From assembly GCA_040218145.1 (NCBI GenBank), contig JAVJQK010000082.1:1-64000 (forward strand): a stretch of DNA of 64,000 bases, written 5' to 3'. Shown here one piece after another: positions 1-9,893 of this stretch. Each line of letters begins with the position of its first letter. Positions within the stretch are counted from its first letter, which is position 1. The notes beneath the pieces were generated by a model. It ran no database searches. It worked only from the letters and a program-made list of their open reading frames with translations, and was not told the DNA's origin. Position numbers and translations under genes: made by a program. Origin of the DNA: Sandaracinaceae bacterium. GTDB taxonomy: Bacteria; Myxococcota_A; Polyangia; Polyangiales; Sandaracinaceae.

Positions 1-138
1 CCGAAGGATCTCGGAGCGCGACGGCCTGATTCTCGGTTCGGGGCGACGAGGGAATGCTTCAGCATTTTCGAGGAGCCACGGGCCGAGAGGCGGGCCGTCC
101 CGCCCGAGAGACGAGGAGCGAGGTTCTTCAACGGGCTC
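1..138. other. Left-edge non-coding stretch with short hairpins
   Basis: No convincing gene is visible in this stretch, which lies downstream of the stop of the minus-strand gene ending at 139. It holds two small perfect hairpins. One is AATGC-TTCA-GCATT at 53-66 followed by TTCG on the plus strand. The other is GGCGGG-CCGT-CCCGCC at 89-104. Neither has a proper T-run, so a terminator role is only possible. Confidence 0.4.
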
Positions 139-1242
139 CTAACTCTTCGGGGGCAGGGAATCGAGAAGGCGCCCGATTCCTCGCGCCACGGAGTCCATGC
201 TCCGTCGGCGCCCAGCGCCCACGAACTGAAGCAGATAGAGCTTCCAAACCGGGGGTTCTCCCGGCCGCACGGAGACCTTGAGATGGGACATCATGTGGCC
301 GAGCGAGTCTCCGCCCTCGAGATCGAGTGGCTCCCTCCGCGCACCGACATGATCCCAGATCGCGGCGCCGAGGTCCGGGATGGACCGGCAGCGCTGAAGG
401 AGCGGCACCGACGCGGCGCGCAGCTCAGGGTGCGTCTCGAGGTCGATCTCCAGCCCCATGCGCACGCAGCGACCCCCGCGCCAATCCTCGACGCGACTGG
501 CCTCGATCTCGGTGATGGCGGCGAGAAAGGTCTCCAGCTCTCGGGGGACGGCGGGGCCTCCGCCGAAGCTCGTCAGCTCTCGGAGGTGCTCCCGATGGGT
601 CCCCCGCACGTACGTCTTCAGGGTTCGTTGGTCGCCCTTCACCGACATCCCGACCTGGTTGATCCGCCCACCTCTCTGGGAGGCGCGCAGGGCGCTCAGG
701 GTGTCCTGGAGCTCGTCTGGAGCGGCTCCGCCGAAGAGCCATCGCCATTGGGCGTCATGAATCTCCTCGGTGTGGCGCCGCCCGTAGAAGATGATGTTGA
801 GGCCCACCACCTCGGGGCGAGGTTCCCCTGCCAGCGCGACGTACACGATACGAGGCCGGGGGAGCGCCGTCGACGGGTGAGTGCTGGCCCAGCCCGACTC
901 CTCGATGCGCGCCAGCAGGTCGTGGAGGGGCTCGGCGAGCGATGTGCTGTCCAGCGTCGCCTGGAGGAGATTCGACACTCTCGAGGGACCGGGGGTTCGC
1001 TGGGGCGCGTCGAACAGGAATGGGAAACCGACGCTGACACCGACGCGCCACGGATCGGTCAGCCCGACCTCGAGGCCGTGCGGGCAGACCGCGAGGTCTC
1101 GCGGGAGCGCTCGCAGCGTCGCCAGGGCCGCGTGCCAGCCCGCGGACTCACGCAGGTCGTCCCGAAAGTCTCCCGTCCATCGCCCGAGCAGCGCGTCCAG
1201 GCCCTGTGGCCTCCAGCTCTCGACCAGCCCATCTCGATCCAT
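139..1242 (-). CDS. Uncharacterised protein, last gene of the carrier-protein cluster; possible ABBA-fold prenyltransferase-like
   Basis: I do not recognise this 367-residue soluble protein with certainty. It has no signal peptide or membrane segment. The sequence contains several strand-turn-strand elements separated by helical stretches, at about residues 57-77, 130-154, 194-214, 258-268 and 319-341. Two of them end in Lys-x-Tyr (LKTYV at 208-212, WKLYL at 333-337). A series of such hairpins with Lys/Tyr ends is typical of ABBA-fold (DMATS/cyanobactin type) prenyltransferases, so that fold is a speculative suggestion. It lies 38 bp downstream of the adenylating ligase on the same strand, and a TAATCT hexamer 9 nt before its ATG may give it its own promoter. 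Confidence 0.62.
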   Translation of the reverse strand: MDRDGLVESWRPQGLDALLGRWTGDFRDDLRESAGWHAALATLRALPRDLAVCPHGLEVGLTDPWRVGVSVGFPFLFDAPQRTPGPSRVSNLLQATLDSTSLAEPLHDLLARIEESGWASTHPSTALPRPRIVYVALAGEPRPEVVGLNIIFYGRRHTEEIHDAQWRWLFGGAAPDELQDTLSALRASQRGGRINQVGMSVKGDQRTLKTYVRGTHREHLRELTSFGGGPAVPRELETFLAAITEIEASRVEDWRGGRCVRMGLEIDLETHPELRAASVPLLQRCRSIPDLGAAIWDHVGARREPLDLEGGDSLGHMMSHLKVSVRPGEPPVWKLYLLQFVGAGRRRSMDSVARGIGRLLDSLPPKS

Positions 1243-1251
1243 CGCTGGGCG

Positions 1252-1257
1252 AGATTA
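1252..1257 (-). promoter_or_regulatory. Candidate -10 element TAATCT
   Basis: A TANNNT hexamer on the minus strand ends 9 nt before the ATG at 1242, in the 38-bp gap after the ligase gene. No clear -35 is visible. It fits a spacing pattern seen at many genes here. Confidence 0.35.
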
Positions 1258-1280
1258 CTCGATCTCGGGGGCGCCTGACT

Positions 1281-2675
1281 TCATCCGCGAGCCCTTCCCG
1301 CGTTCCGCTCCGCCAACGCTGTCAGCGCCACTTTCCCCGTCTCGGTGCGCGGGAGCGCGTCGAGGCGGTGCAGCTCGGTCGGGATCATGTACGGGGGCAG
1401 GAGCGCCGCGCAATGGAGTCGGAGCGCGCGCGCGTCCGCGTCGCCCACGAAGTAGGCGGCCAGGCTCTCGCCCCGCGGGACGACCGCGCACTCGACGACG
1501 CCCGGGTGCTGGGCCAGCGCGTGCTCGACCTCGCCGAGCTCCACCCGGTGGCCCCGCACCTTCACCATGCGGTCCCGGCGCCCGTGGAAGCGCAGCACGC
1601 CGCCCTCCTCGGTGACGAGGTCGCCGGTCGCGTGTCGTCGCGGCGGCGCCGAGAGCGGCTCGCCCCAGTAGCCGCACATCACCGCCTCGCCCTCGATCAC
1701 GAGCTCGCCGCCGTCGAGGTGGCCGCGCAGGTGAGGCAGGACCTCGCCGATCGGGATGGGAGGGTCATCCGGCTCGAGTGACGTGACCCGATGCGCGGTG
1801 CACACGTTCGTCTCGGTCGGCCCGTAGAAGTTCTCGTAGCGCGCGCCCGGGTGCGCCTCCATCAGGGCGGCGAGCGCGGGCACGGGGAAGACCTCCCCGG
1901 CGAAGACGATCGCGCGGAGCGAGGTGAGGTCCGCGTGGTGCTCGAGGAGCCGCGTCCAGAGAGTGGGCACCGCGTACATCACCGTCGGGCGGTGCTCGGC
2001 GATCCAGGCCGCGAGGGTCGCGGGGAAGAGCGACGCCTCGTGCGGGGGATGGAGGACGTGCGCGCCGGCCTCCACCGCGGCGAAGAGATCGAAGGTCGCC
2101 AGATCGAAGGTGATCGGCGCCACTGCCGCCACGCGATCCTCCGGGGACAGCGCGAGCCGCTCCACGGCCCAGCGCGGGAAGGCGACGGCGCCGCGGTGAT
2201 CCCAGGTGACGCCCTTCGGCGCGCCCGTGCTGCCCGACGTGTAGAGGATGAAGGCGAGATCCTCGGGCGAGGGCGCGGCCTCGAGCGGCGCGTCCGGAAT
2301 CGACTCGAGCGCGACGCAGCGCATGCCCTCGCCAGCGGCGGCCTCGATGCGCGAGGCGAGGCGCGCGTGCGCCGCGTCGTGCAGGAGCAGCGCGGCGCCG
2401 GCGTGGGCGAGCGTCGCACGGGCGCGCGCGGGCGGCGCGCTGGCCGAGAGCGGGACGGCGACCGCGCCGGCGGCGAGCGCGCCGTGGAAGGCGGCGCTGA
2501 GGGGGGCGTCGCGCGCGGCGAGCAGGCCGACGCGTGATCCTGCCGCGCCCTGGAGGAGTCGCGCGACCCCTCCCGCGCGGGCCGCGAACGCCTCGTAGGT
2601 GAGCGCGCCCGCCGCGAGCCGCCTCGGGTGCGCGCGCGCGGCGCGGAGGAGGGCGGCGGTGAGCGTCTCGGTCAT
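1281..2675 (-). CDS. Amino-acid:carrier-protein adenylating ligase (NRPS-type A enzyme, prolyl-AMP-ligase-like)
   Basis: This 464-residue stand-alone adenylation enzyme would activate an acid as its AMP ester and load it onto a carrier protein. Visible core motifs are YTSGSTGAPKG (145-155), FDLATFDLF (190-198), FAGE (258-261), FYGPTETN (283-290), TGD (350-352), and the C-terminal RTETGK with the catalytic Lys448. The FYGPTETNVCT-type stretch is the kind seen in amino-acid:ACP ligases such as the L-prolyl ligases of pyrrole pathways. That substrate is an inference from memory of the family and from the context. The start chosen is the ATG at 2675, 8 nt after the dehydrogenase stop. An in-frame extension upstream encodes only Arg/Pro-rich sequence shadowing the previous gene. 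The carrier protein at 5220 is the obvious partner. Confidence 0.9.
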   Translation of the reverse strand: MTETLTAALLRAARAHPRRLAAGALTYEAFAARAGGVARLLQGAAGSRVGLLAARDAPLSAAFHGALAAGAVAVPLSASAPPARARATLAHAGAALLLHDAAHARLASRIEAAAGEGMRCVALESIPDAPLEAAPSPEDLAFILYTSGSTGAPKGVTWDHRGAVAFPRWAVERLALSPEDRVAAVAPITFDLATFDLFAAVEAGAHVLHPPHEASLFPATLAAWIAEHRPTVMYAVPTLWTRLLEHHADLTSLRAIVFAGEVFPVPALAALMEAHPGARYENFYGPTETNVCTAHRVTSLEPDDPPIPIGEVLPHLRGHLDGGELVIEGEAVMCGYWGEPLSAPPRRHATGDLVTEEGGVLRFHGRRDRMVKVRGHRVELGEVEHALAQHPGVVECAVVPRGESLAAYFVGDADARALRLHCAALLPPYMIPTELHRLDALPRTETGKVALTALAERNAGRARG

Positions 2676-2683
2676 CGTCCGCC

Positions 2684-3751
2684 TCAGAGGCCGAGGTGGG
2701 CGGCCAGGATCACCCGCTGCATGTCGCTGGTGCCGCTGTAGAGCACGCCGCCGATCGCGTCGCGGAGGTGCGCGGGGAGGCCGGTCTCCTCGAGGTAGCC
2801 CGTGCCGCCGTGGAGGCGGATGGCGTCGAGGTGCTGGGCGAGCGCCCACTCGCTGAGGCGCAGCTTGGTGAGGCACGCGAGCGGCGCGTCGAGCGTGCCG
2901 TCGACGAGCGCGGCGCAGGTCTTCTCGAGCAGCATTCGCGCGAGCACGTAGCGCTCGTACATCTCGACCACCCGCGCCGCGACGAGCTGGTTCTTGCCGA
3001 TGGGGCGGCCGAACTGGCGGCGGGTGCGCGCGTGCTTCAGGCCCGCCTCGAGCTGCGCGCGCATCACCCCGACGGCGGGCGCGAGGATGAGCGCCCGCTC
3101 GTGCAGCATCGCGGTGTGAAAGACGGCCGCGCCGCGACCCGGGCCCTCGAGCACGGCGTCCGCCGGCACCCGGCAGCCCTCGAGATAGAGGCTGGTGAGG
3201 CTCGCGCGCGCGAGGCCCATCTTGTCCATCGGCGCGCCGACGGTGAGCCCCGCCGCCCCGCGCTCGAGTACGAAGCCGGTCACGCCCTGCTCTGGGACGC
3301 GCGCGAAGACGACGAAGACGTCCGCCTCGGCGCCGTTCGTGACCCAGAGCTTGCTGCCGCTCAGGAGGTAGCCGTCGCCGTCGGGCTCGGCCCGCGCCGC
3401 CATCGCCATCGTGTCCGAGCCGGCCTCGGCCTCGCTCGCCGCGTGCGCGCCGATCTGCTCCCCGGATCGGAGCTTCGCCAGATGTTTTGCTTTGATGCGA
3501 TCGCTGCCGTGCGCCGCGATGGGGGCGAGCGCGGCGCAGGCGTGCGCGCCGAGGGCGAAGCAGAGGCCCGCGTCGGCGCTCTCGCCGAGCCCCTCCCAGG
3601 TGTGCGCCAGGGTGTCGGCGTCGAGGTCGGGGGCGAAGAGCCCGAAGGCGCCGACCTCCCGGAACGCGTCTGGCAGCGAGCGCTCGCGGAGGCTGGCCCC
3701 GAGCTTGATCGCCTCGCGCTGCACGTCGGAGCGCGCGGGGAGCGCGCGCAT
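2684..3751 (-). CDS. Acyl-CoA dehydrogenase-family flavoenzyme, probably acting on a carrier-bound acyl group
   Basis: This 355-residue protein has the acyl-CoA dehydrogenase architecture: the FAD/substrate region around SEAEAGSDT (106-114), the LWVTNG loop (135-140), RRQFGRPIG (244-252), the LHGGTGYLEE segment (313-322) and YSGTSDMQR (338-346). The usual catalytic Glu of medium-chain enzymes (YEGT) is replaced by Ser339. A Glu is present instead in LHERALIL (Glu218), the position used by isovaleryl-CoA dehydrogenase-like enzymes. Prolyl-carrier-protein oxidases (PltE/RedW type) belong to that branch, so oxidation of an aminoacyl group on the adjacent carrier protein is plausible but not proven. 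Its ATG overlaps the previous stop (TGATG at 3749-3753), so translation is coupled. Confidence 0.9.
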   Translation of the reverse strand: MRALPARSDVQREAIKLGASLRERSLPDAFREVGAFGLFAPDLDADTLAHTWEGLGESADAGLCFALGAHACAALAPIAAHGSDRIKAKHLAKLRSGEQIGAHAASEAEAGSDTMAMAARAEPDGDGYLLSGSKLWVTNGAEADVFVVFARVPEQGVTGFVLERGAAGLTVGAPMDKMGLARASLTSLYLEGCRVPADAVLEGPGRGAAVFHTAMLHERALILAPAVGVMRAQLEAGLKHARTRRQFGRPIGKNQLVAARVVEMYERYVLARMLLEKTCAALVDGTLDAPLACLTKLRLSEWALAQHLDAIRLHGGTGYLEETGLPAHLRDAIGGVLYSGTSDMQRVILAAHLGL

Positions 3752-5223
3752 CAGCCCTTCAACCTCGCGCGGTCCTCGGCCGCGAGCAGCATGTCGAGCC
3801 CGCCGTTGCCCTCGTCGAAGAGGAACGCGGCGCGGTAGCCCATCTCGCGCGCCTCTCCGAGCGCGGCGAGGCAGCCGTCGACGTCGCGCGCGGGCCGGGT
3901 CGCGAGCACCGTGTCGCGCACGAGTGAGATCTCGGCCGCCGCTCGCAGCGAGCCCGCGCCGTGCGCGGCGTAGATGTCGAGCCCGGCTCCGTCGCAGCGA
4001 CCGTCCACGATGGGGCCCAGGCCCTGGACCGACGCCGTCACCGGGACCTCGGAGCGACTCGCGTGCGCGCTTCGCGCCGCCTCGGTGAGCTGCGCGTGCG
4101 CCGACGACCACGTCACGCCCTCGCCGATCTCCGCGTCCCAGCCCGAGGCGAGATCGATCAGCCACGCGCCGTCGGGCGCCGCCACCGGGTGCATCTCCTC
4201 GGTGATCCAGCACGCCTTCAGCCCGCGCTCGTCGATCGCGGCCTGCGCCGCCTGCGCGCCCTCACGCACGCGGAGCCGCACGGCGTCGAGGCCGAGCTCC
4301 TGGACGCCGTCGAGCCTCCGCTGGAGCTTGCCGAGGTCGCCGTCGAAGGAGAGGTTCACGCCGCGCACGAAGCCGTCGCCGATGCGCGCGCGCCGCTTCG
4401 CGATCGCGTCGGCCGACTCCGGACCCTCGGCGGGCGGCTTGCGCAACGCGACCGCCATCGCCGCGAAGGTGTGCAGCTTGAACTCGCTCATGCGGTGGTG
4501 GAGCGTGTCCCAGTCGTCGCTCGTGTAGAGGGTGGTGCCCTCGATTTCGAGCCCGCTCGGGGCGATGGCGTTCCGTTGCAGGGCGAGCCGGTCGTAGACG
4601 ACGTCGTCCTCGCTCCGCCGCTCCACCTCGTCGTAGTCGACCGTGAGGTAGAGGATCCCGCCTGGCTTCAGCACGCGGTTCATCTCCCGCGCGACGGCGG
4701 GCTGGGCGTCGGGGTCGATGTGCTCGAGGACCGAGATGCAGTAGACGCGGTCGAAGGTCGCATCCGGGAACTTCAGCGCCGTCATGTCCATCTCGACGGG
4801 CACGACCGCCGCGCGGTGGAACTCCGCGGCGCGCGCGAGCATGGTCAGCCAGCGCAGGTCGTTGTCGATGGCGACGACGGTCGCGCCGAGCGAGGCGAGG
4901 CGGATCGGCAGCGCGGACACCCCGCAGCCCGCGTCCAGCACCAGCTCGCCCTCGGGCGCGGCGTGGCGGGTCAGCGCCCACGGGTACTCCCAGACCTTCG
5001 ACGGGTAGACGAAGGAGAGCTGCTGGCCGGCCTCTTCTTTCTCTCGCGCGATCTGCGCCGCGATGCCGCGGTTCGCCCCCGCCATCGGCTCGCGCCGGAT
5101 GTCGTCGGGCTCGAGGATGCGGTTCTGCGCCTGCTCGGGCGCGGGCTCGTCGCCGGTGGGGTGCACGACGGGCGGCTCGAGGGGAACCGGCCGCTCGGGC
5201 TTGACGAACTCCTCGTCGCTCAC
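3751..5223 (-). CDS. SAM-dependent methyltransferase fused to a barrel-like C-terminal domain
   Basis: This 490-residue protein starts with GTG at 5223, overlapping the carrier-protein stop by GTGA. After a Pro-rich leader, residues 70-265 form a class I methyltransferase: VLDAGCGVSALP (95-106) is the SAM-binding motif I, AIDND (118-122) the acidic loop, FDRVYCISVLEHI (157-169) motif IV and VLKPGGILYL (184-193). Residues about 285-490 form a second alpha/beta domain with repeated strand-helix units (NLSFDGDLGKL, LGLDAVRLRV, MGYRAAFLFDEGNGG). It resembles half of a TIM barrel and I cannot assign it. A methylation step on the pathway intermediate is the likely role. The fusion is uncommon in my experience. 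Confidence 0.85.
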   Translation of the reverse strand: MSDEEFVKPERPVPLEPPVVHPTGDEPAPEQAQNRILEPDDIRREPMAGANRGIAAQIAREKEEAGQQLSFVYPSKVWEYPWALTRHAAPEGELVLDAGCGVSALPIRLASLGATVVAIDNDLRWLTMLARAAEFHRAAVVPVEMDMTALKFPDATFDRVYCISVLEHIDPDAQPAVAREMNRVLKPGGILYLTVDYDEVERRSEDDVVYDRLALQRNAIAPSGLEIEGTTLYTSDDWDTLHHRMSEFKLHTFAAMAVALRKPPAEGPESADAIAKRRARIGDGFVRGVNLSFDGDLGKLQRRLDGVQELGLDAVRLRVREGAQAAQAAIDERGLKACWITEEMHPVAAPDGAWLIDLASGWDAEIGEGVTWSSAHAQLTEAARSAHASRSEVPVTASVQGLGPIVDGRCDGAGLDIYAAHGAGSLRAAAEISLVRDTVLATRPARDVDGCLAALGEAREMGYRAAFLFDEGNGGLDMLLAAEDRARLKG

Positions 5224-5453
5224 GCGTCCTTCTTTCGCTGCACGAACGCGCGGATGGCGGCGAGCGTCCGGAAGTTGGCCGGCACGATCTCGTCCTGCGC
5301 GACGGTGATGCCCTCGGCGTCCTCGAGGTTCGCGACCAGGCGGATGATGGCGAGCGAGTCGAGCATGCCCGGCGCGAGGAGATCCTCCTCGTCCGTCACG
5401 TCCTCGACCCCGGGGAGCTCGTCCTTCAGGAACTGGCGAAGCGGTTCGCTCAC
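5220..5453 (-). CDS. Acyl/peptidyl carrier protein
   Basis: This 77-residue acidic helical protein has the carrier-protein signature GMLDSLAII, with Ser33 as the expected 4'-phosphopantetheine attachment site. Its size matches stand-alone carrier proteins. The GTG start at 5453 overlaps the stop of the membrane gene (GTGA at 5450-5453), and its own stop overlaps the methyltransferase start (GTGA at 5220-5223), so it sits in the middle of a translationally coupled set. The ligase at 1281 and dehydrogenase at 2684 are the natural loading and modifying enzymes. No phosphopantetheinyl transferase gene is present in the window. Confidence 0.9.
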   Translation of the reverse strand: MSEPLRQFLKDELPGVEDVTDEEDLLAPGMLDSLAIIRLVANLEDAEGITVAQDEIVPANFRTLAAIRAFVQRKKDA

Positions 5454-6460
5454 GGCGCGGGATGGTAGCGCATGCCGGCCTCCGTAGAAGGCTCGCGCTT
5501 CCGTCGGTCCCAGACCATGTGCAGCATCGCGCCCGTGGCCCAGCCCCAGAGCCCCATCACGAAGAGGCCGAAGATGGTCAGCTCGCCCCACCACGGGATG
5601 GCCCAGACCTGCATCGCCACGCCCGCGGCGGCGCACGGGACCGTCCATCGGGAGGCGCGTCGGAAGTAGCCGAGCAGCACCCGAAGCTGCGCGTGGCTGA
5701 AGAAGCACGGGAAGTACGCGCTGGCGATCATCGGGTAGTCCGAGACGTTCATCGTCGAGACCATCGGGTAGTGGAACGCGAACAGGGTCAGCACCGCGGG
5801 GATGCGGAGCCGCGGGACCCGCCACGCGATCCACGGCACGCAGCACTCGACGAAGATCGTCCCGTAGATGGCGCAGTAGGCGGCCCACGTGGGCAGCTCG
5901 CTGCCGAGGTCGGCGTACACCCAGAACTGCCCCATGCCGTGCACGGCGGCGCTCGTCGGGATGGCGAAGAAGTTCTCGTTGATCTTGTGGAAGCCCGCGA
6001 AGAAATAGTTGACGCAGACGATCAGCGCGAGCCCGTCCGCGGCGTAGCGATCGACGACCCGCGCGCGCGGCCCACGGCCCCGGAAGTCGTGCGCCCCGAG
6101 CAGCCAGGCGACGATCCAGACCACGCCGAGCATCGTGAGCCCGCTGAACATGTGGCTCATGTGATTTCGGATGCGGTACGGGTACGTCAGGTAGTGCGCC
6201 CAGTAGATCAGGATCACCGCGAGCAGCCACTGCCGCCGCCGGTCGACGGCGAGGCCGATCACCGCCGCGGCGAGCATGAAGGCGAGCACGACCGGGACCC
6301 ACCCCGGCAGGTGCTGGTGCCATCCCGGCTGGAACGCCTCCCGCGCCCACGCGTGCGCCTCCCAGGGGCGGTCCTCGCCGAGCAGCTGCAGCGTGTGCCC
6401 GACGAAGGCGGGAATCAGCAGGATCCCGAACGCCTGCAGCCGCAGATCCTTGCTGATCAC
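5450..6460 (-). CDS. Polytopic membrane protein, HTTM-domain-like
   Basis: This 336-residue integral membrane protein has about eight hydrophobic segments. The stretch VNYFFAGFHKINENFF, a Phe/Lys/Asn-rich segment after a membrane helix, resembles the HTTM domain found in vitamin-K-carboxylase-like and SdpB-like bacterial membrane proteins. That assignment is moderate. The GTG at 6460 was chosen because it overlaps the upstream stop as GTGA (6457-6460). A longer in-frame start at 6520 would run deep into the upstream gene. Its place in a carrier-protein operon suggests a membrane step such as export, immunity or modification of the product. Confidence 0.8.
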   Translation of the reverse strand: MISKDLRLQAFGILLIPAFVGHTLQLLGEDRPWEAHAWAREAFQPGWHQHLPGWVPVVLAFMLAAAVIGLAVDRRRQWLLAVILIYWAHYLTYPYRIRNHMSHMFSGLTMLGVVWIVAWLLGAHDFRGRGPRARVVDRYAADGLALIVCVNYFFAGFHKINENFFAIPTSAAVHGMGQFWVYADLGSELPTWAAYCAIYGTIFVECCVPWIAWRVPRLRIPAVLTLFAFHYPMVSTMNVSDYPMIASAYFPCFFSHAQLRVLLGYFRRASRWTVPCAAAGVAMQVWAIPWWGELTIFGLFVMGLWGWATGAMLHMVWDRRKREPSTEAGMRYHPAP

Positions 6461-6984
6461 GGATCCTCCGGCGGCCACGGGTAGGGGTAGTGGCTGTCGT
6501 AGAGGCGGACCGGGATCCACGCGTGAGGCGCGCTGAAGCGCGGATCCGCGCAGGCGTCGTCGGTCCTCTGCACGGGTCCGCCGGCCGCCGGCCGACGCGC
6601 GACGGCCACCGCGTGGCCCGCGTCACAGAGCTGCCGGATCGCGACCCGCATCGCCTCGTCGTTGTGCTGGATCCCGTCGCGCCGGAGCCACTCCACGAGA
6701 TCGCCGAGGCGCCCCGCGCGCGGCTCTGGCGTCACGTCCACCTCGAGGTCGATGTAGAAGATCCAGAGCGAGCTCAGCATGCGCTGCGGCGCGATCAGGT
6801 GGTTGTTCCCGCCGTCCTCCCAGGAGAGCCCGGAGAACATGGTCTGACAGCTGTCGTCCCGGAGCCCCAGGTACGGGAGGCTGTTGTTCGTGACCTGCAG
6901 CGCGCCGACGATGGCCACCGCGGCGAAGAGCGCGCGGCGCAGCCGCCGGTCGGCGTCGGGGGTCGTCTCGCGCGGGCGGGGCAT
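6457..6984 (-). CDS. Single-pass membrane protein of unknown function, first gene of the cluster
   Basis: This 175-residue protein has an N-terminal membrane helix at about residues 16-33 after an Arg-rich start, then an extracytoplasmic domain with Cys residues near 46, 120 and 145. No family recognised. It opens the operon running to 1281 and overlaps the HTTM-like gene by four bases. HTTM proteins often have a small partner subunit, and this gene could be that partner, which is speculation. The ATG at 6984 is preceded by a TAGAGT hexamer 12 nt upstream. Confidence 0.75.
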   Translation of the reverse strand: MPRPRETTPDADRRLRRALFAAVAIVGALQVTNNSLPYLGLRDDSCQTMFSGLSWEDGGNNHLIAPQRMLSSLWIFYIDLEVDVTPEPRAGRLGDLVEWLRRDGIQHNDEAMRVAIRQLCDAGHAVAVARRPAAGGPVQRTDDACADPRFSAPHAWIPVRLYDSHYPYPWPPEDP

Positions 6985-6996
6985 GGCTCGCGCGCC

Positions 6997-7002
6997 ACTC
7001 TA
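6997..7002 (-). promoter_or_regulatory. Candidate -10 element TAGAGT for the carrier-protein operon
   Basis: TAGAGT on the minus strand lies 12 nt before the ATG at 6984, in the 144-bp divergent gap with the plus gene at 7129. No strong -35 was found. Confidence 0.35.
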
Positions 7003-7128
7003 CCGCGCCCGGCCGGGTTCGGTTGCGCAGACGCGCACGACCTGCGCGGCCGCAGCCCGTCTCGCGCCGGTGCGGCCCTCGGCACGAGACGTGCGGCATC
7101 GCAGCTGGGACCTCGAACGAGGGACGAG

Positions 7129-7494
7129 ATGGCACGAGCGAGCCCGAACCCGACATCCCCGTGGCCGAGCTCCGGGCAGCTGGACGAGGCGCTCCGTCGC
7201 GAGAGAGCGGGCAGGGCGAGCGCGGGGCACGTGGCGCTCACCGTGGCCAATCGCAGCGATCAGCCGCTGACCGCGCTGCACATCGTCGGGGCGCTGACGC
7301 CGGGGTGGGGCGAGGACTGGCTGTGCGGTGTGAGGCTCGCGCCAGGCGAGGAGATCCGGCTCGAGTGGCTCTGTCAGGAGCGCAGCTATCACCTGCGCGT
7401 GTCCGGCGCCGACGGGCTGCCCGTCGGCTACCGATCGCTCCGCCCGGAGCCCGGCCAGGCCTGGCGCTGGGTCTTCACCCTCGCGCGGCGCTGA
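7129..7494 (+). CDS. Small uncharacterised protein
   Basis: This 121-residue protein is preceded by a purine-rich site (gagggacgag) directly before the ATG. Residues 30-120 alternate hydrophobic and polar residues (VALTVANRSDQPL, IRLEWLCQE, WRWVFTL), suggesting a small beta-sandwich. No signal peptide and no family recognised. It ends 9 bp before the stop of the convergent aldehyde dehydrogenase gene. Confidence 0.65.
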   Translation: MARASPNPTSPWPSSGQLDEALRRERAGRASAGHVALTVANRSDQPLTALHIVGALTPGWGEDWLCGVRLAPGEEIRLEWLCQERSYHLRVSGADGLPVGYRSLRPEPGQAWRWVFTLARR

Positions 7495-7503
7495 GGCCGT
7501 CCT

Positions 7504-9075
7504 CTACTCGGAGAGCTTGCGGAGCTTGTTGAGCGCGAGCAGCGCCTTGGGGAGGTTCCCGCCGAGCAGGCCGTGGAAGGCCTGCGCCATCGGCGCGTAC
7601 TTCTGCCGGTAGGGGAACCAGAACGGCTCGAAATCCAGCTTGCCCTTGTCGACCATGATCGACTTCTGGTGCGTGAACGCGAGCAACCCTTCTGGCCCGT
7701 GGTAGCGGCCGAAGCCGCTGTTCTTCACGCCGCCGAAGGGCAGCGCCGGGTTGCCCGTGATGGCCACCACGTCGTTGACCATCACCTGGCCGCTCTCCAT
7801 GCGGGAGGCGAGCGCGAGGCCCTTGTCGACGTCGCGCGTCCAGACCGAGCCGTTCAGCCCGTACTGGTGATCGCTCGCGAGCCGCACCGCCTCGTCGGCG
7901 TCCTTCACGCGCACCACGGGCAGCACCGGGCCGAAGGTCTCCTCGCGGTAGATCTCCATGTCGGTGGTGACCTCGGTGATCAGCGTCGGCGCGAAGAACT
8001 GCCCGGGGCGGTCGAGCCGCTCGCCGCCGCGCAGCACCTTGGCGCCCGCCGCGATCGCGCCTCTCAGGTGTTGCTCGACCGTCTCGATCTGCCGCGGGAA
8101 GGTCATCGGGCCCATGTCGGCGTGCTCGTCCGGCCCACCGACGCGCACCTTGTCGACCTCGCGCTCGAGCAGCGCGACGAAGCGGTCGTGCACCGCGTCC
8201 TCGACGAAGATGCGCTCGACCGAGATGCACATCTGGCCGCAGTTGACGAGGCCGCCCCAGACGGCGGCCCGCGCCGCGCGCTCGAGGTTCGCGTCCGCGC
8301 AGACGATCATCGCGTCCTTGCCGCCCAGCTCGAGCTCCACCGGGATGGGCTTCTTCGCCGCCGCGGCCATGACCTTGCGGCCCGTCGCCACCGAGCCGGT
8401 GAAGAAGAGCTTGTCGACGTCGGCCTCACAGAGCGCGGCGCCCGTCGAGCCGTCGCCCTGGATCACCTCGACGACCCCGCGCGGCAGGCCGATGCGCCGG
8501 AAGATCTCGTCCATGATCTCGCCCGTGAGCGGCGTGACCTCGGAGGGCTTGAGCACGACCGTGTTGCCGGCGATGAGCGCGGAGACCGTCGGCACCATCG
8601 AGAGCTGGAACGGGAAGTTCCAGGGCGAGATGACCCCGATCACGCCCATCGGGAAGTGCTCGATGTAGCTCTTCTTGCCGGGGAAGATGATCGGCGTCCC
8701 GACCCGCTTGCGGGCGAGCGTCTTCGGAGCGGTCTTGCGGTAGTGATCGATGAAGAGCGGGATGCTCATCAGCTCGGTGAGCAGCGAGTCGACGAGGGGC
8801 TTGCCCGTGTCCTCGCTGATGCGGCGCGCGTACTCCTCGCCGTGCGTGCGGACGACGTCCTTGATGCGCGAGAGCATGCGCAGCCGGTCCTGCAGCGCCG
8901 TGTCGCGCCACGCGGGGAAGGCGGCGCGGGCGCGGCCGACCGCGGCGAAGACCTCGTCGCGTGAGGTGATCGGGAAGGTGCCGAGCGGCTCGCCCGACAC
9001 CGGGCTGCGCTTGTCGATCACCGGGCCTCGAGCTGCCTCCGAGCCGCTGCTTCCTACCGTCTGCGTCGTCTCCAT
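7504..9075 (-). CDS. NAD(P)-dependent aldehyde dehydrogenase
   Basis: This 523-residue enzyme of the aldehyde dehydrogenase superfamily would oxidise an aldehyde to its acid with NAD(P). Visible features are PWNFPF (151-156), LKPSE (175-179), FTGS (225-228), ELGG with the general base Glu249, and NCGQMC with the nucleophile Cys283. Length is normal for the family. The ATG at 9075 follows a strong GGAGGGG ribosome site. An upstream in-frame start at 9117 lacks one. The real substrate cannot be read from the sequence. Confidence 0.95.
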   Translation of the reverse strand: METTQTVGSSGSEAARGPVIDKRSPVSGEPLGTFPITSRDEVFAAVGRARAAFPAWRDTALQDRLRMLSRIKDVVRTHGEEYARRISEDTGKPLVDSLLTELMSIPLFIDHYRKTAPKTLARKRVGTPIIFPGKKSYIEHFPMGVIGVISPWNFPFQLSMVPTVSALIAGNTVVLKPSEVTPLTGEIMDEIFRRIGLPRGVVEVIQGDGSTGAALCEADVDKLFFTGSVATGRKVMAAAAKKPIPVELELGGKDAMIVCADANLERAARAAVWGGLVNCGQMCISVERIFVEDAVHDRFVALLEREVDKVRVGGPDEHADMGPMTFPRQIETVEQHLRGAIAAGAKVLRGGERLDRPGQFFAPTLITEVTTDMEIYREETFGPVLPVVRVKDADEAVRLASDHQYGLNGSVWTRDVDKGLALASRMESGQVMVNDVVAITGNPALPFGGVKNSGFGRYHGPEGLLAFTHQKSIMVDKGKLDFEPFWFPYRQKYAPMAQAFHGLLGGNLPKALLALNKLRKLSE

Positions 9076-9134
9076 CGCGTTCCCCTCCAGGTCGTCGAAG
9101 CATGCGCGGCGCTGCACGGCCGCGCCAGCCTGGC

Positions 9135-9140
9135 TATGGT
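9135..9140 (+). promoter_or_regulatory. Candidate -10 element TATGGT
   Basis: TATGGT lies 12 nt before the ATG at 9153, in the 77-bp divergent gap with the aldehyde dehydrogenase gene. Confidence 0.35.
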
Positions 9141-9152
9141 TCGTGGGGGATC

Positions 9153-9893
9153 ATGAGCGACGCCTACCGCGAGCCAGCGCGCGAGACCTCCGCGGAGCCT
9201 CCCCGCGTGGTGGGGACGTCCCTCGCGAGCGCCGCCATGCTCGGGACGGCGGCGATGGGCGGCGTGGCCGGCGCGGCCCTGCTCGGCAGCTTGGAGCTCG
9301 CCGCGCTCGCCGCCGCGGGGGCCTGCGCGGCGGTGACGCACCTGGCCCGCGCGCGCCGTCGTCGGCGCCTCGAGGGCGAGGTGGCGCGCTTCCTCGGCGA
9401 CTCCATCGTCGTCGAGCCCGGCGCGTGGACGAGCGCGGACGGCCGCCGGCGCGTGCGCGTCGCCCTGGGCGACGATCACGCGCGCTTCGAGCGGCTCGAC
9501 CCGGCGTCCGACGTGACCTTGACCAGTCACCGCGCGCGGGTCGACGTCGCCCTCGTGGCCGCCGAGCGGCGCGTGCTGGAGCGTCACGAGGCGCGCGCGT
9601 TCGGGCGCCCGCTCCGGCCTTGCTGCTTCGACGGCCTGGGCCCCTCGGCCACGCTGCGGGATCCGCGCACGGTGTCGGTCGAGTCGTGCGCGTCGGGGGT
9701 GCTGGTCCGCCGGCTGGACGCGCACGGCGAGCTCATCGGCGACACGTGGCACGCCTCGCCCGCGGCCGCGCGCCGACAGCTGGCCCGCGAGCTCGGCGCG
9801 CACCTGGGCGTGTCCTCTCCCCCGCGGCGGTCGTCGGCGCCGGTGCCCGCCGCGAGCTGGGAGCCCGGCGCGGACGCGCGCGTCGCCATCTGA
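9153..9893 (+). CDS. Membrane-anchored protein of unknown function
   Basis: This 246-residue protein has two adjacent hydrophobic segments at about residues 20-58 (AAMLGTAAMGG and LAALAAAGACAAV), then a basic RARRRRR stretch that should stay cytoplasmic, and a soluble domain of about 180 residues rich in Arg, Asp and Val. No domain recognised. The ATG at 9153 has a GGGGGA ribosome site. It is followed at 35 bp by another small membrane-protein gene on the same strand. Confidence 0.7.
   Translation: MSDAYREPARETSAEPPRVVGTSLASAAMLGTAAMGGVAGAALLGSLELAALAAAGACAAVTHLARARRRRRLEGEVARFLGDSIVVEPGAWTSADGRRRVRVALGDDHARFERLDPASDVTLTSHRARVDVALVAAERRVLERHEARAFGRPLRPCCFDGLGPSATLRDPRTVSVESCASGVLVRRLDAHGELIGDTWHASPAAARRQLARELGAHLGVSSPPRRSSAPVPAASWEPGADARVAI

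Follow-up and report, generated by a model that had tools for sequence, protein, structure and literature searches.

The question raised by this locus concerns the product, and the destination, of a compact set of six co-directional genes lying on the minus strand (6984-1281) of a 64,000-nucleotide stretch of contig C82 (hereafter the window) from a Sandaracinaceae bacterium, a marine myxobacterium. The six genes, P0001 to P0006, code for a ligase, an oxidase, a methyltransferase, a carrier protein, an HTTM-like membrane protein, and a protein of 175 amino acids (aa), and an earlier note on this DNA had read them as an operon that may make a pyrrole-type or other oxidised aminoacyl unit. On the whole, the evidence collected here leans towards the idea that the operon is a thiotemplated proline-to-pyrrole cassette serving a prenylated and hydroxylated pathway resembling those of ribosomally synthesized and post-translationally modified peptides (RiPPs). 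Within this idea, the formation of a pyrrole (or of an oxidised prolyl unit) by the cassette is very likely in the light of the sequences; that the cassette and the peptide half of the locus belong to the same pathway is probable; the attachment of the pyrrole to the peptide appears doubtful.

Ligase, Oxidase, and Carrier Protein

The ligase P0001 (1281-2675; 464 aa; Pfam AMP-binding, 4.6e-61) is a stand-alone, prolyl-type adenylating enzyme whose best solved relative is PltF (6o6e, 1e-72), with adenylation domains of nonribosomal peptide synthetases (NRPSs) also among the best. Its ten-residue specificity code, whose extraction the earlier note had proposed and which was read here against PltF, is DLFYVAFVCK; seven of the ten residues are those of PltF (DLLYLALVCK), and the NRPS-type Asp of the code is retained. 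The same code, identical at all ten positions, is carried by the ligase of another locus (L048), where a ligase, an oxidase, and a carrier also occur together; the codes of 17 such ligases of the order follow the pattern DLxYxAxVCK in 13 cases and are of a DLFN type in four. In the phylogenetic tree, P0001 clusters with NRPS adenylation domains and with ligases of the PltF kind, and a 100/100 branch sets it off from the acyl-CoA ligases encoded in the same genome.

The oxidase P0002 (2684-3751; 355 aa; Acyl-CoA_dh_1, 6.7e-29) resembles the flavin-dependent dehydrogenases acting on prolyl carrier proteins. Its top solved relatives are AnaB (the best single-sequence match, 225.6 bits, 7e-66), PltE, and Bmp3, the last being the protein of structure 6CXT (PMC10849742). 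The catalytic Glu of these enzymes is conserved, the Glu of the FHTAMLHER motif of P0002 aligning with the one mutated in 6af6. In the tree, P0002 sits on a long branch and groups at 99/99 with PltE and Bmp3; AnaB and the β-oxidation enzymes of its own genome lie elsewhere. The two best NCBIfam models are RedW (NF045652; 262.1 bits against a cut-off of 650) and PigA (NF053553; 262.4 against 500), and since both scores are far under the cut-offs, P0002 is not an equivalog of either.

The carrier protein P0004 (5220-5453; 77 aa; PP-binding, 3.9e-5) is also stand-alone, with the phosphopantetheine Ser33 in the motif GMLDSLAII. It gave 22 matches with solved structures, the best seven of which are PltL, PigG, the carrier crystallised with Bmp3 (6cxt), and proteins annotated as peptidyl carriers. 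The relatives of all three proteins thus support the pyrrole-type (oxidised prolyl-carrier) reading of the earlier note, and it is for this chemistry that the evidence is strongest, because the ligase, the oxidase, and the carrier point to it by separate routes.

Other ligase-oxidase neighbours were also seen. Those of L053, L055, L059, and L052 have ligases with DLFN-type codes (DLFNxSVSSK in three of them) and in some cases adjoin GNAT-like genes; judging from the codes, the substrate of these ligases is predicted to be a different one. L064 (8199-17999) embeds an oxidase, a ligase, a methyltransferase, a carrier, a Trp_halogenase-family protein, and a protein with a ketosynthase motif, and looks like a halogenated-pyrrole polyketide cluster.

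Organization of the Operon and Junction with a Putative Peptide Cluster

The coordinates confirm the six genes and the overlaps described in the earlier note, that is, GTGA at 6460-6457, 5453-5450, and 5223-5220, and TGATG at 3753-3749; the ATG of the ligase lies 8 nt past the stop of the oxidase. Pfam likewise agrees with the identification of ligase, oxidase, carrier, and methyltransferase. The third-position GC content of the operon genes is 0.93-0.96, which fits real genes. Scans for promoters and terminators found nothing, and the search of other genomes found the whole operon in the same species only.

The ligase is not the last gene of the operon. A further gene on this strand, P0007 (139-1242), begins 38 bp past the stop codon of the ligase, and the start of the window is the end of contig C82. 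When opposite strands are considered, the first 120 bases (1-120) are exactly the end of contig G000:C24; this 120-mer occurs once, at the junction, in L065, a contig from a second assembly of this species, which spans the oxidase, the ligase, P0007, and the region onward. The exact overlap and the spanning contig of the same species allow us to join the operon to G000:C24. Hence, the idea of a small orphan pathway without polyketide synthase (PKS) or NRPS modules, advanced in the earlier note, holds as far as the absence of PKS and NRPS is concerned but has to be abandoned as regards the orphan status, since the operon runs into a prenyltransferase of the alpha-beta-beta-alpha (ABBA) type and adjoins a putative peptide cluster with exporters.

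The peptide gene P0009 (G000:C24:95335-95652; 105 aa) lies 282 bp beyond P0007 on the same strand. Its product ends ELSAEEMEAAKGG-VGDDMYNATAGADWDGQ, that is, a GG leader followed by the core VGDDMYNATAGADWDGQ. It is followed by genes for two JmjC oxygenases, one matching JmjC_2 (1.7e-25) and one Cupin_8 (1.8e-40), and for a DUF6445 protein, an M16 peptidase, P0014, and a methyltransferase and, further along, for a Peptidase_C39 ATP-binding cassette (ABC) exporter (2.8e-30), an HlyD protein, a second C39-like ABC protein, and a second methyltransferase. The leader end ELSAEEMEAAKGG consists of an ELSxE-type stretch plus GG, beside a C39 exporter, as does ELSKEQLESVAGG in L103 (see below). We call P0009 a GG-leader rather than a Nif11 peptide because neither a Nif11 nor an NHLP profile matched it, and its identity as a ribosomal peptide rests for the same reason on the motif and on the neighbouring genes. 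The layout as a whole is that of a putative GG-leader ribosomal-peptide pathway. Two related CMAS-like methyltransferases were noticed in the peptide half (L070, 9603-10340 and 3275-4060); by eye, the pair recalls C-methyltransferases acting on prenyl diphosphates, a function that would agree with the presence of prenyltransferases.

A similar arrangement occurs in a distant myxobacterium, at L103 (G476:C62:38000-52925), where the region 2-9559 harbors a 63-aa GG-leader peptide with the core NKPRKVVVVSNPHDWPS, two JmjC/cupin proteins above the JmjC_2 cut-off, a distant ABBA-type prenyltransferase, an HlyD protein, and a Peptidase_C39 ABC exporter (3.2e-32). From its gene content, we regard L103 as a second representative of the same kind of peptide cluster.

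The comparison of the window (1281-6984) with the other assembly (L065/L027) revealed that the ligase differs at 31 of 465 codons and the acyl-CoA dehydrogenase part at 11 of 323, whereas P0007 and the first JmjC gene differ at 1 of 368 and 1 of 400 codons, respectively, the peptide half being nearly identical. It is possible that this divergence of the carrier operon marks a recombination boundary.

Predicted Prenyltransferases

P0007 matched no Pfam or NCBIfam model up to an E value of 10, and P0014 no Pfam prenyltransferase model up to 0.01. The structure model of P0007, the only one of the two proteins modelled, exhibits the alpha-beta-beta-alpha order of elements (predicted local distance difference test, pLDDT, 53.6; predicted template modelling score, pTM, 0.55). 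All of the 50 matches listed by a structural aligner for this model are aromatic prenyltransferases (Z 10.0-13.3), and Foldseek retrieved IptA (9.2e-6), with PagF and PatF also among the matches. The model thus matches an aromatic prenyltransferase of the ABBA/DMATS type, as which P0007 is predicted to act. Its paralog P0014 (33% identity) is encoded in the peptide half of the cluster. K209/Y211, K334/Y336, and K322 are invariant across P0007, P0014, and the relative in L103; Lys-x-Tyr pairs on the barrel strands of ABBA prenyltransferases presumably bind the diphosphate. Within the order (183 genomes searched), the family was found in the two assemblies of this species only, and a distant relative (E 7.5e-4) lies in G476, a genome from another family of the class. 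Weak matches in G216, G530, G560, and G485 look like chance and were discarded. A further distant relative (L113, G487:C117, 9717-10748) was observed, by eye, among glycosyltransferases, a GNAT-like protein, and a small Trp-containing protein of 106 aa.

Methyltransferase and HTTM-like Pair

P0003 (3751-5223; 490 aa) is a class I S-adenosylmethionine-dependent methyltransferase (Methyltransf_11, 2.8e-19) with an extra C-terminal region of about 200-218 aa (3751-4407, minus strand). No relatives of this region above chance were found outside the species in the 183 genomes of the order, and the structure model of P0003 from the single sequence was unusable (pLDDT 41).

For P0005 (5450-6460; GTG start), a multi-span membrane protein, the HTTM label is an indirect one, since Pfam gave no match for P0005 itself but 31.6 bits for its relative L012, above the HTTM cut-off of 27.7. 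P0006 (6457-6984), with an N-terminal hydrophobic segment, is by eye like the C-terminal part of HTTM-like proteins of 420-500 aa. In L011, L013, and L017, a single chain combines an HTTM-like portion with one resembling the 175-aa protein (by eye), and in G206 (L010/L026, 16136-17870), an HTTM-like protein and a small partner are adjacent, beside a sugar-epimerase-like gene and without carrier genes. Since the two are fused in the former and paired alone in the latter, P0006 and P0005 probably represent one split machine; since the pair also occurs without any carrier genes, it would have a role of its own.

Proposed Pathway and Alternative Explanations

Gene content, homology, specificity code, catalytic residues, adjacency, and the prenyltransferase fold come directly from the comparisons above. 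As for the substrate, the degree of oxidation, the acceptor, the order of the steps, and the roles of the methyltransferase and the HTTM-like pair, we suggest the following scheme. P0001 would adenylate L-proline and load it onto P0004, and P0002 would oxidise the bound prolyl group to pyrrolyl-2-carboxyl (a four-electron or possibly a two-electron oxidation), after which P0003 may methylate the carrier-bound ring. The acyl unit would next be transferred, in the simplest case to the P0009 core or to an intermediate already prenylated. Prenylation by P0007 and P0014 would take place on a Trp or Tyr residue of this core, or else on the pyrrole; the JmjC pair would carry out hydroxylation, and the C39-peptidase ABC exporter would cleave after GG and export the product. 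The final product envisaged, a RiPP acylated with a carrier-built pyrrole, prenylated by two ABBA-type enzymes, and hydroxylated by two JmjC proteins, with the HTTM-like pair or the P0003 tail carrying out the transfer, is conceivable but rather improbable in this complete form.

Several findings weigh against the idea of a pyrrole cassette serving a peptide pathway. In a second tree, P0001 fell outside the NRPS domain clade (100/100), but approximately unbiased tests rejected none of three placements, so that the trees do not fix its position relative to PltF. The operon contains nothing recognisable as an acyltransferase or thioesterase, a gap of 282 bp separates P0007 from the peptide gene, and the confidence of the P0007 model is low. 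P0009 has no Nif11, NHLP, or other profile match in Pfam and NCBIfam up to an E value of 10 and no relatives above chance in 38 genomes. Moreover, the peptide cluster of L103 lacks the proline cassette, and ligase-oxidase pairs without a peptide cluster, such as that of L064, occur in other genomes of the order, so that the link between pyrrole and peptide rests on one species.

Some of these findings would be explained if the cassette and P0007 together made a free (methylated, prenylated) pyrrole-2-carboxylate, independently of the neighbouring peptide cluster. Small aromatics are frequent substrates of ABBA prenyltransferases; the closeness of P0007 to the ligase, the gap that follows it, and the absence of an acyltransferase fit this possibility, as does the greater divergence of the carrier operon relative to P0007 and the peptide half. 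P0014, the paralog of P0007, sits, however, on the peptide side, and the distant relative in L103 adjoins a GG-leader peptide and an exporter; we consider this explanation unlikely, albeit one to be taken seriously. A cassette that halts at a two-electron oxidised proline (a pyrroline), or that uses a proline analogue without forming any pyrrole, is a good deal harder to sustain. The product of AnaB, the top single-sequence match of P0002, is, we assume, a pyrroline, the code of P0001 differs from that of PltF at three positions, and P0002 lies on a long branch; yet in the tree P0002 goes with PltE and Bmp3, both pyrrole-forming, and not with AnaB, and the best matches of P0004 include pyrrolyl carriers. 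Finally, Pfam matches at the family level would by themselves permit ordinary genes for the activation and dehydrogenation of fatty acids (β-oxidation), or a D-alanine-type loading. The earlier note had held that a grouping of the ligase with fatty-acid or D-alanine ligases, and of the oxidase with β-oxidation enzymes, would refute its reading. Neither was found, given the positions of P0001 and P0002 in the trees, the retained NRPS-type Asp, and the score of the DltA model on the ligase (149 bits against a cut-off of 476), so that this explanation is very improbable.

Comparison with Known Systems

The proline-to-pyrrole cassette proposed here shares its stand-alone prolyl-type ligase, its flavin dehydrogenase with a catalytic Glu, and its stand-alone carrier with PltF/PltE/PltL (pyoluteorin), PigI/PigA/PigG and RedM/RedW/RedO (prodiginines), Bmp4/Bmp3/Bmp1, and CloN4/CloN3/CloN5. 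Such cassettes, which also occur in NRPS pathways, furnish starter or acyl-donor units to polyketide, prodiginine, and aminocoumarin pathways. Unlike them, the operon of the window has no PKS, NRPS, halogenase, or aminocoumarin genes, and it is accompanied by a prenyltransferase and a ribosomal-peptide-like cluster, a tailed methyltransferase, and an HTTM-like pair, with an oxidase far under the RedW and PigA cut-offs.

On the peptide side, the combination of a leader peptide and a prenyltransferase recalls the MppC/MppE lanthipeptides, in which MppC prenylates a Nif11-leader peptide (PMC12715784), and the cyanobactins (PagF/PatF); however, the annotated genes here include no lanthipeptide synthetase, and the cluster has two JmjC proteins, prenyltransferases undetected by Pfam, and the proline cassette. 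The biphenomycin cluster is similar in that a JmjC hydroxylase, BipG, acts on a ribosomal peptide (PMC12707348), but no multinuclear non-heme iron-dependent oxidative enzyme (MNIO) is found among the annotated genes here, and the listed biphenomycin genes include neither a prenyltransferase nor a carrier. In the papers searched, we found no description of a pyrrole cassette joined to a peptide cluster and recognised no pyrrole-bearing RiPP; the sandacrabins, considered as a link to the cluster, were set aside, being farnesylated dimethylbenzimidazoles and not pyrroles. If the proposed reading is true, a pyrrole cassette wired to a prenylated ribosomal peptide would unite two biosynthetic logics and define a testable new myxobacterial peptide family with two prenyltransferases that escape Pfam, and the recurrence in L103 makes this cluster type searchable.

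The nearest precedent for the carrier-built acyl unit is nosiheptide (PMC5585349): an indolic acid, loaded by NosI onto the cryptic carrier NosJ, is methylated in its bound form by NosN before its release towards the peptide by NosK. In that system too, a ligase and a cryptic carrier supply a ribosomal peptide with an aromatic acyl group bearing a methyl (PMC5585349). It differs in that the indolic acid comes from a radical SAM enzyme, with no oxidation on the carrier, and in its hydrolase-like NosK, a counterpart of which was not recognised here. If the pyrrole is indeed destined for the peptide, the nosiheptide precedent would be widened to an amino-acid-derived heterocycle.

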